From Bacteroidota bacterium (GTDB lineage: Bacteria; Bacteroidota; Bacteroidia; JAHEXY01), in the NCBI GenBank assembly GCA_023251875.1, contig JAHEXY010000017.1, positions 1 through 49,492 of the forward strand: a DNA stretch of 49,492 nt. Reading direction: 5' to 3'. The notes under the pieces are model-generated. The model searched no databases. It was not told where the DNA came from and saw nothing but the letters and a program-made list of their open reading frames with translations. Every line of letters begins with the position of its first letter. Position 1 is the stretch's first letter. Positions 37,227-40,822 of the stretch are shown here, piece after piece. Both the position numbers and the translations under genes were made by a program.

Positions 37227-38141
37227 TTAATAACTTACTACAATTGTATCAGCCAAAACTTCGCATCCTCCAAAAAATCCAATAGCTCCTTCACTTAAAT
37301 TTGTTGGTAAATTAGCAGGGCTGGCTTCAAATACATTTCCATTCCATTGGGTTTCCGAAAGCAGGGCACGAATGTAATTTGCATGCTCTGGTGTGAGTGA
37401 ATATTTTTTTTCTACAATAATTGTTCCAGCGGGAAAAATAGCATTTTCTTTTTGTGCGGCAAAAATCTCATTTACATCAATAGTTTTTAATGTATAGATA
37501 TAACCTAAAAAATGATTTTGGCTAGAGTCTAAATTTTCATATCCGGTAACTTTTGACCAATCGAATAACAATTCGTGCATGGCATTTTCAGCAAAAAACA
37601 CGTCTATTTTCCAATCGTAATAAAATGTTGAATCAGCACTATTAAAAAAATAAGTTATGGGAATAATGCTATTTACAGAACTTAAATACGTTTGAGCTGT
37701 ATAGGTTTTGCTCTTATATGAAATGGATAAGGTGTAGGTTTTATTTTCTGTTGCTTGTATTGAGTCTGTTAAATAAATACCCGAACCAATGGGCGTTTCA
37801 CTTAGTGTAAAAGTTGTATCGCCATTTGTTATAGTAACAGTAGCCCCACTTATCGCTTCTGGTATTTGATTTAACTCTGTTGTTGGCAAGCTTAAAGTAA
37901 TGGCATGTTGTTTGTATTCATTTGTGATGATTCCATCAACAACAATGTTTGTATTCGATACTGTTTGTGTAGGCCAGTCTACTTTTTCAACACAAGAAGC
38001 AAAGAAGAATAAAATCATTAAAATGGCAATTGTTTTTTTTGTAGCATTATGCTGAACTTGTTTCGGCATCTTAGTTGCTGCAGATTCTGAAACAAGTTCA
38101 GGATGACGTTCTATTTGAGTTAGTGCGCGCATCATTTCCAT
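37227..38141 (-). CDS. DUF4249 lipoprotein, partner of the TonB-dependent receptor
   Basis: The protein is anchored by a lipoprotein signal (KKTIAILMILFFFASC), followed by the DUF4249 hallmark NTNIVVDGIITNEYKQHAIT, EAISGATVTITNGDTTFTL and YTLSISYKSKTYTAQTYL. DUF4249 lipoproteins lie beside TonB receptors of Fec-like units and probably act at the cell surface with them. The gene overlaps the receptor stop (ATGGAAATGA), so translation is coupled. From the ATG at 38141 there are 304 residues, but about 35 precede the hydrophobic signal, and most of these are encoded by a palindromic repeat (38051-38107). Possible starts are M1/M3 at the overlap or the Met of MPKQVQHN within the repeat. Which is used decides whether the signal peptide works normally. 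Confidence 0.85.
   Translation of the reverse strand: MEMMRALTQIERHPELVSESAATKMPKQVQHNATKKTIAILMILFFFASCVEKVDWPTQTVSNTNIVVDGIITNEYKQHAITLSLPTTELNQIPEAISGATVTITNGDTTFTLSETPIGSGIYLTDSIQATENKTYTLSISYKSKTYTAQTYLSSVNSIIPITYFFNSADSTFYYDWKIDVFFAENAMHELLFDWSKVTGYENLDSSQNHFLGYIYTLKTIDVNEIFAAQKENAIFPAGTIIVEKKYSLTPEHANYIRALLSETQWNGNVFEASPANLPTNLSEGAIGFFGGCEVLADTIVVSY
38051..38107 (-). repeat. TGAACTTGTTTC palindromic repeat in the DUF4249 signal region
   Basis: Perfect 12-bp arms TGAACTTGTTTC (38053-38064) and GAAACAAGTTCA (38089-38100) lie within a longer imperfect palindrome ending AGGATGAC. The unit is read in frame as HPELVSES...MPKQVQHN at the front of the lipoprotein. Confidence 0.85.
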
Positions 38142-40822
38142 GAAAAATTATATTGTATAGATGGCACAATGCCTAATAAAGAAATTTGTGTTGGGATATT
38201 ATTAGGATTTGTTAAAGTATTCATGGGTACGGAAAAACTCCCATCTGCGTTTTCAATTTTATTAAAGGTTGTTGTAAAAGGGTTTTTATGATTGTATACA
38301 TTGTAAATAGAAAATGTAATGCTGTGTTTGAATTTCTTATCCGGATTTTTATTTAATTGAAATGTAGCTGCAATATCTAAACGATGGTAATCGGGTAAAC
38401 GTTCATTGTTTTTTTCTGCATAAATAGGTACTTGCGTTCCTTGGTAATAATAATAAGATGTTGGTGTGGTAATGGGTGATCCTGTTGCGTAATAAAAACA
38501 AGTAGAAAATGTCCAGCGTTTTTTAGTTTGGTAATTTAATGTGATAGAAATGTCGTTGGGCCTATCGTAATAAGGAAAGTAAGAATTCCCATTGTTAATG
38601 CCTTCTGTTTCGCAAATTACTTTTGAAAGGGTGTAGGCGATAGTTCCGTTTAAATGGCCTTGTGTTTTACTGAGTAAAAATTCTATGCCATAGGCCCAAG
38701 CTTTTCCAAATCTTAATTCTCCTTCCATTAATGGATTTAATAACAAACTGGCATGATCAACATAGTCGATTTGATTATGCATTTGCTTGTAATAGGTTTC
38801 TGCACTAAAATCTATGCTATGCTTTTTGAAATTATGGTAATAACCTATTGCAAGTTGATCTGCCGTTTGTGGCTTAATATTAGGGCCACTCGGAAGCCAT
38901 ATATCCAATGAGGTAAAGGGGCTATTCATATTCGATAACAATTGCAAATACTGGGCTGTTCTTTCGTAACTTAATTTTAGTGATGAGGTGCTATCAAAAG
39001 CATAACAAATACTTGCACGGGGTTCCGGAGTAAAATAACTATTGTATACTTGTCTATCTCCGGGAGTAATGGTATCGTAAACATTGTGATTTTCATCAAA
39101 TAAATATACCCTTGTTGGTCCGAGATTTTGCCACCAGCTTATTCGCATTCCGTATTGGGTAGAAAATTTGCTTCCTATTTTTTGTTCATCAGAAATATAG
39201 AAGGCTAATTCTCTAGCGTGTTGTTTGGGAATTTGAGAAATGGAGCTTTGGTAAATTTGACTTTCGGCATCTAAATAAATATTACCGGGATCAAAAAAGT
39301 GAGCTTTTAGTAGCATGCCAAATTTTAATGTGTTTTTGGGTGTGATAAAATAAGTGAAATCTGTTTTTCCACTCAGATTAGAAATTATTTCACTCCAGTA
39401 ATTGTCTTTACCCAAATAAAAGATATAATTGTATTTACTTGCGTAGATAACGGTATTTGAAAAAACCTTTTCGCTAAATAACTGATTCCATCTGGCTGTT
39501 ATAGCATTATTTCCCCAGCTTAATCCTGTTTTTCCAACACCTGTTTTTAAGCTTCCAAAATAATCTTTGCCTGCATAAAGGGTGAGAAACAAACGCGACA
39601 TATCGCTAAATTTAAAATTAAATTTGGTACTGAAATCATAAAAATATAAACTATAAATTTTTCTGTTTTGTGCGGCTAAAAGCCATTCTAAATTTGACCT
39701 GCGAGATGAAATATAATAAGAGCTTTTTTCCTTCTTTATTGGCCCTTCAACAGAGAGTCTTGAGGTAATGGGACCTATACCTCCATTCATGGCAAAATGA
39801 TTCATGTTACCATCTTTGGTTCTAATATCAAGCAAGGATGACAAACCACTTTCTTTGCTTACCGGAATATCTGATTTATAAACTTCCATGTCTTTTATGG
39901 CATCACTTGAGAAAGAAGTGAAAAACCCAAATAGGTGAGATGGATTATAAATAGGAGCTTCATCTATTAAAATAAAATTTTGATCTTTAGCTCCACCTCT
40001 TACATAAAAATAGGCTGATCCATCTCCATATCCTTTTATTCCGGGTAATGTTTGTAATGATTTAATTACATCTGCTTCTCCCATAAAAACGGGCAACAGT
40101 TTTATATCTTGTTGTTTAATGTTAGCCTCGCTCATTTGACTACTTTGTAACTTTTCTATTTTAGCATCATGAACTACCTCTGCAGATTTTAATTGTATGG
40201 AATTAGGATTCAGGTTTGAATTGATGCGTTGATCAGCATGAAGCGGTACGGTCATGTTTGTTTTTTCATATCCTAAAAAACTTATTTCAATGTTGTAATC
40301 TCCCTCGGGTAAGGTGAGAGAATAAAAGCCATAAGCGTTGGTGCTTGTGCCTGCTCTTAAATCAGTAACAAAAATATTTGCTCCAATCAATAATTCATGT
40401 GAGGTTTGGTCTGTTATATAACCGCTAATGGTATACTTGTTTTTTGTAAGGCTAGTTTGTTTTTTTTCTACTTCGGTTGTCTCAGAAGTTTGATTTGTAT
40501 TTTGTTTGTGTGGTTTTAAAATAATTTGCTTTTCAACTATTGCATAATCTAAATTGAGTTGGGCACATATATCATCCATAATGAACTGTATGCTTTTATT
40601 TTTTGCATTAATAGAAATTTTTTGAGAAGTACGCACTTTTTCATTACTCAATGCAAAATGAATATTGCCTTTTTGTTCAATTTCATTTAACACTTCATCA
40701 AGTGATTGATTATTGGCTGAAATGCTAATTTTTTGATTAAGATCAATGGTTTGAGAAAATGCATAAAAGGGACATGTTCCTATAAATAATAAAAGTAGTA
40801 ATGAGCATAGGATTCTAATCAT
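38132..40822 (-). CDS. TonB-dependent receptor with N-terminal signalling (STN) domain
   Basis: The 896-residue outer-membrane receptor has a signal peptide (LLLFIGTCPFYAFSQ). Residues 25-100 form an STN signalling domain (SISANNQSLDEVLNEIEQKGNIHFALS...KSIQFIMDDICAQLNLDY). A CarboxypepD-like domain follows (about 130-215, ISGYITDQTSHELLIGANIFV). The plug (about 240-345) contains VIKSLQTLPGIKGYGDGSAYFYVRGGAKDQNFILIDEAPI, here split for reading, and the barrel follows. The STN domain links ligand binding to the FecR-like protein and ECF sigma factor encoded just upstream. The ligand is unknown; siderophore, other metal complex or glycan are all possible. The gene precedes and overlaps the DUF4249 gene. 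Confidence 0.94.
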   Translation of the reverse strand: MIRILCSLLLLLFIGTCPFYAFSQTIDLNQKISISANNQSLDEVLNEIEQKGNIHFALSNEKVRTSQKISINAKNKSIQFIMDDICAQLNLDYAIVEKQIILKPHKQNTNQTSETTEVEKKQTSLTKNKYTISGYITDQTSHELLIGANIFVTDLRAGTSTNAYGFYSLTLPEGDYNIEISFLGYEKTNMTVPLHADQRINSNLNPNSIQLKSAEVVHDAKIEKLQSSQMSEANIKQQDIKLLPVFMGEADVIKSLQTLPGIKGYGDGSAYFYVRGGAKDQNFILIDEAPIYNPSHLFGFFTSFSSDAIKDMEVYKSDIPVSKESGLSSLLDIRTKDGNMNHFAMNGGIGPITSRLSVEGPIKKEKSSYYISSRRSNLEWLLAAQNRKIYSLYFYDFSTKFNFKFSDMSRLFLTLYAGKDYFGSLKTGVGKTGLSWGNNAITARWNQLFSEKVFSNTVIYASKYNYIFYLGKDNYWSEIISNLSGKTDFTYFITPKNTLKFGMLLKAHFFDPGNIYLDAESQIYQSSISQIPKQHARELAFYISDEQKIGSKFSTQYGMRISWWQNLGPTRVYLFDENHNVYDTITPGDRQVYNSYFTPEPRASICYAFDSTSSLKLSYERTAQYLQLLSNMNSPFTSLDIWLPSGPNIKPQTADQLAIGYYHNFKKHSIDFSAETYYKQMHNQIDYVDHASLLLNPLMEGELRFGKAWAYGIEFLLSKTQGHLNGTIAYTLSKVICETEGINNGNSYFPYYDRPNDISITLNYQTKKRWTFSTCFYYATGSPITTPTSYYYYQGTQVPIYAEKNNERLPDYHRLDIAATFQLNKNPDKKFKHSITFSIYNVYNHKNPFTTTFNKIENADGSFSVPMNTLTNPNNIPTQISLLGIVPSIQYNFSWK

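Follow-up and report, generated by a model that had tools for sequence, protein, structure and literature searches.

A CGTC-type REP dimer in frame between receptor-overlapping ATGs and the predicted signal peptide of a DUF4249 lipoprotein gene

CGTC-tagged REPs, short repeats common in bacteria, were described by Di Nocera, De Gregorio and Rocco in 2013 in Bacteroidetes among other phyla, and head-to-head dimers were predominant (PMC3733652). The same work reported these repeats without a dedicated transposase and equated RPE-4 and RPE-6 of Rickettsia with CGTC-4 and CGTC-1. Intragenic REPs, some of them N-terminal, were already described there, and many of the N-terminal cases may be untranslated (PMC3733652).

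Two further systems are close to the locus studied here (PMC2229807). The Rickettsia palindromic elements (RPE; Ogata 2000) are likewise palindromes translated in frame within protein genes and tolerated there; they are numerous and often longer, and their residues mostly stay in the mature protein, whereas the residues of the REP described below should leave with the signal peptide. In the Yersinia gene YPO1552 (Delihas 2007, via PMC2229807), a small RU-2/YPAL repeat also lies in frame at the signal peptide of an exported protein, but there it supplies a portion of a putative new protein's signal peptide, and the present REP does no more than extend the n-region of a lipoprotein that is conserved. 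In-frame and N-terminal REPs have been published before, as has a signal peptide derived from a repeat. This locus neatly illustrates a known phenomenon and is not a new system.

The REP dimer at the receptor-lipoprotein junction

The window, which means here the whole stretch of 49,492 nucleotides analysed, contains the following features at the junction, all on the minus strand.

37227..38141 (-), DUF4249 lipoprotein ORF, 304 aa from ATG 38141 (Pfam PF14054, E 3.5e-15)
38132..40822 (-), TonB-dependent receptor gene directly upstream, with STN, carboxypeptidase-regulatory, plug and barrel domains
38130..38141 (-), upstream candidate starts, in-frame ATG at 38141, 38135 and 38132, around the receptor stop TGA (38134-38132)
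38045..38108 (-), CGTC-type REP head-to-head dimer, a 64-nt inverted repeat, from covariance model, fold and arm pairing
38108-38082 (-), REP unit 1, CGTCATCCTGAACTTGTTTCAGAATCT, followed by a 10-nt spacer
38071-38045 (-), inverted REP unit 2, AGATGCCGAAACAAGTTCAGCATAATG
38067..38069 (-), ATG within the REP (MPKQVQHN), in frame and next to the hairpin loop on the 3' arm
38033..38047 (-), out-of-frame ATG (38047-38045) at the REP end, then CTAC and an A8 tract (38040-38033)
37992..38045 (-), ATKK, the positively charged last part of the n-region, then the hydrophobic core TIAILMILFFFAS followed by lipobox Cys50 (codon 37994-37992)

The lipoprotein ORF scored 56.7 bits against PF14054 (cut-off 28.5), and it lies downstream of a TonB receptor gene, a gene order shared by its homologues. 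The hydrophobic core and the FASC motif suggest that the product is lipid-modified and exported. The receptor ends with TGG AAA TGA, and the lipoprotein frame ATG GAA ATG ATG spans this stop; ATG 38135 forms a classic ATGA overlap with it, as in the homologues L071 and L079, in agreement with the coupling proposed earlier.

The earlier note had placed a palindrome with 12-bp arms between this start and the signal peptide. This palindrome is confirmed, and it exceeds the stated size: the arms are 23 nt each (38049-38071 and 38082-38104), 87% complementary and 10 nt apart, and the whole element begins about 23-24 nt past the receptor stop. Its folding energy is -22 kcal/mol, compared with -10.7 +/- 2.9 for shuffled sequences (z -4.0), and none of 200 shuffles was as low. 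In a search of the window, the dimer matched a covariance model built from 18 dimers with 71.6 bits (E 3e-17).

Each half, 27 nt long, forms a small hairpin whose stem has 8 bp and whose loop is CTTGT, namely ATCCTGAA-CTTGT-TTCAGAAT (7/8 pairs) and ATGCTGAA-CTTGT-TTCGGCAT (8/8, including one G-U). This agrees with the stem of CGTC-tagged REPs, which has 8-9 bp with A-T pairs first and a loop of 4-5 nt. The class is further defined by an unpaired CGTC at one end of each unit, TGTC and CCTC variants being accepted; CGTC is present in unit 1 (38108-38105), and unit 2 has a decayed CATT, two transitions away. The short unpaired tail is mostly CCA in the class; the two units here end in CTG and CTT, and related dimers have CTN. 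We identify the element as a CGTC-tagged REP head-to-head dimer, like the described repeats in the tag of unit 1, the 8-bp stem with A-T first pairs, the 5-nt loop, head-to-head arrangement, Bacteroidetes host, lack of transposase linkage and the occasional occurrence of in-frame and N-terminal copies. The differences are that this genome holds only four dimers, that one unit has lost the proper tag, that the tail is not CCA, and that the copy in the window precedes a lipoprotein signal peptide.

Read in the lipoprotein frame, the dimer encodes about residues 12-32 (R-HPELVSES-AATK-MPKQVQH-N), after which ATKK and the core follow. The n-region has 36 residues before the core from ATG 38141, close to the 35 estimated earlier, and 12 from ATG 38069, the Met codon that the repeat does bring in frame, as had been claimed. 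An n-region of 33-36 residues with acidic residues is unusual, which speaks against the upstream starts, whereas the length from the REP's own ATG would be ordinary.

Distribution of the repeat and relation to transposases

The covariance model search of the genome gave exactly four matches, all full-length dimers: the one in the window, C20:67995, C11:569662 and C10:216995. Only the window dimer is intragenic, and the other three are located between genes. Its architecture (27-nt unit, spacer and 27-nt inverted unit) matches 41 dimers of other genomes. Of 395 Bacteroidia genomes, 36 contain the pattern CTGAAACAAGTTCAGNATGACG, certain genera having tens of copies; the reversed-pattern controls gave 0 matches. 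A related pattern occurred, among the matches listed, in Spirochaetes, Ignavibacteria, Alphaproteobacteria including Rickettsia, Patescibacteria and others; that search considered only copies followed by an A-rich stretch, and no rates are drawn from it.

Among 67 motif copies in other Bacteroidia, 34 were located between same-direction genes, 25 between convergent and 4 between divergent genes, and 3 inside ORFs. Same-direction or convergent gaps therefore hold 59 of the 67, many close behind a stop codon. REPs usually follow a stop codon in the gap between two genes of the same direction, so the location in the window is typical, except for the missing spacer before the signal peptide.

Covariation among the dimers was no better than in shuffles, because the arms hardly vary from dimer to dimer. 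Rfam holds no family for the repeat, the only hit being a chance miRNA match far under the cut-off, and none of the plasmid records encodes the REP peptide. As separate observations, one locus of another genome (L144; G330 C4:345000-349000) contains an array of several CGTC-type REPs, most of them 84 bp apart or multiples of this distance, and a 258-codon open frame runs antisense through them. On a contig titled Nanoarchaeota (L168, JAHIPG010000372.1), the REP motif lies at the beginning of a 577-codon open frame, also with the REP-like peptide VILTLSGSEGEE; this copy could reflect misbinning or cross-domain spread.

The repeat had been called mobile in the earlier note. This word is not borne out: the class is reported without a dedicated transposase (PMC3733652), and the REP motif was found in the flanks of none of the seven Y1 transposase (Y1_Tnp) genes of the genome, so that the copies here stand without transposase association. 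Assignment to a RAYT-mobilised (GTAG) REP or REPtron, recognised by copies flanking a RAYT gene together with GTAG, was tried and rejected. Several of the Y1 transposase genes are flanked by other short palindromes. At six of these RAYT-like genes (L088-L093, G000), several stand amid palindromes of their own (ACCGCTACGCGGT, GTTCCGTAGGAAC, CCCGAAGGGG) that differ from gene to gene.

Probable start codon and predicted fate of the leader

The lipobox Cys lies at a distance of 50 residues from ATG 38141, 48 or 47 from the overlapping ATGs, and 26 from ATG 38069. In 29 other receptor-linked lipoproteins, from the class and from the same genome, the start-to-Cys distance is 13-28 residues, with 19 the commonest. 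The REP extension is absent from the homologous lipoproteins. What is unusual at this locus is how near the receptor stop DUF4249 genes start, in most homologues no more than about 10 nt away; as lipoproteins of this family start within a few bases of this stop, a REP at its usual site fell between start and signal peptide. A receptor-protein scan of the collected genome contigs found no relative, and the genome is the sole member of its order there.

The only other long leader belongs to another DUF4249 paralogue that this genome encodes (G000 C22:181727-181831; L085:1366-1470), with 44 residues from start to Cys and a 30-residue n-region. Its leader TPPLRRVKVQWTFEPVR derives partly from an unrelated dispersed repeat (CCCCTTCGGAGGGTAAAAGTCCAGTGGACTTTTGAGCC), 50 bp of which recur elsewhere in the genome with 90% identity, and long inverted repeats were looked for in that leader without success. 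A repeat is thus present in the leader of two of the genome's six DUF4249 genes, two unrelated repeats in the same place, which points to tolerance of such insertions by the leader. The earlier note would have taken orthologues with the same extension from unrelated DNA as speaking against its proposal; this was found in part, in a paralogue of the same genome and not in an orthologue. The 90% copy itself (C7:238598-238647; L166:1501-1550) lies antisense, in open frame, midway through the gene of a 380-residue FAD-dependent oxidoreductase (DAO).

Initiation in Bacteroidetes does not rely on Shine-Dalgarno sequences, and A at -3, -6 and -12/-13 together with low structure is favourable (PMC6847099). 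As the next in-frame Met lies within the hydrophobic core, the usable in-frame ATGs are only upstream of the REP or inside it. The unfolding cost of the initiation region is about 8 kcal/mol at the coupled ATGs and about 19 at the REP ATG 38069. We also simulated a REP that is merely intergenic, with real dimers, random flanks and a simple base-composition model: the signal-peptide frame was open through the dimer in 12% of cases and also reached an ATG near the upstream stop in 0.7%, a figure that gives support and not proof, since the model is simple and the finding was picked for its oddness.

The low unfolding cost, the improbable open frame, the ATGA overlap shared with L071 and L079 and the nearness of most homologous starts to the receptor stop make us prefer the coupled start, with the REP ATG as its main rival. 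The REP dimer at the junction is probably read through from the coupled start at 38135/38132; the leader would then be cleaved and the mature lipoprotein left unaltered. Ribosomes finishing the receptor would restart at the overlapping ATGs and melt the REP hairpin, and the n-region would grow by about 20 residues encoded by the REP. The signal core would still direct export, and signal peptidase II would cut before Cys50. Judging from known lipoprotein processing, every REP-encoded residue would be discarded with the leader and the mature lipoprotein would be the same whichever start is used; the insertion would be tolerated because it sits in this disposable leader.

The suggestion of the earlier note that the repeat moved the start site is favoured by the sequence context and disfavoured by structure. 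Translation from ATG 38069, a codon belonging to the REP consensus, would give the leader MPKQVQHNATKK-TIAILMILFFFAS-C of 26 residues, which with its net positive n-region fits the family range, and A at -3 and -6 is a favoured Bacteroidetes context (PMC6847099). This ATG, however, lies in the strong hairpin with the high unfolding cost given above, an in-frame ATG within the REP is expected in one third of random cases of the simulation, and a start there would not account for the frame being open, against the odds, as far as the ATGA overlap. We consider it unlikely.

The REP might also be untranslated and intergenic, with the true start at ATG 38047 and the frame lost by one A missing from the A8 tract through assembly error, polymorphism or slippage. 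This ATG has the best sequence context among the candidate starts (A at -3, -6 and -12). With 9 A it would read MLQKKTIAILMILFFFASC, a leader of 19 residues that is typical of lipoproteins and of the commonest family length. Many N-terminal REPs may be extragenic and misannotated according to Di Nocera (PMC3733652), and sampled REP-fused frames (L170, L182, L190, L270) have a further Met near a family-like start after the repeat; in the window gene no further Met stands between the REP and the hydrophobic core, its one distinctive feature compared with sampled REP-fused genes. But this reading requires a frame error in an otherwise intact assembly, and the frame as sequenced is open to the overlapping start, which the simulation rarely produced by chance. 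It appears to us quite improbable.

The stable hairpin shortly behind the receptor stop might instead be kept as an RNA element tuning the lipoprotein level relative to the receptor, a form of intercistronic REP control in which coding would be incidental. REPs elsewhere were proposed to act post-transcriptionally (PMC3733652), but the junctions of most homologues are short or different and have no room for a conserved hairpin, the hairpin is found at one gene only in this genome, and covariation among the dimers is not beyond chance. Such a role is very improbable here.

Possible meaning for leaders of receptor-coupled lipoproteins

REPs read in frame are found in other genes. In argS of a Moranbacteria genome (L242:4784-6295), a REP dimer is read in frame between the N-terminal domain and the catalytic one, with the same peptide pair (RPELVSGS..MLKQVQHD), and REP peptides are also in frame in leuS of Winogradskyella (L203) and in a methylmalonyl-CoA mutase fusion (L107).

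Under the preferred coupled start, the lipoprotein gene may be an example of how a gene absorbs a repeat without harm: in frame, behind a coupled start and on the discarded side of a cleavage site. We might tentatively speculate, although we regard it as doubtful, that the cleaved leaders of receptor-coupled lipoproteins are a safe harbour that captures dispersed palindromes as translated sequence, here with an alternative start codon. If n-regions prove to be enriched in repeats, this would tell in a simple way at which sites of coding sequence selfish or inert DNA can hide, and it would call for caution in the automatic annotation of start codons in Bacteroidetes, whose starts have no Shine-Dalgarno marks.
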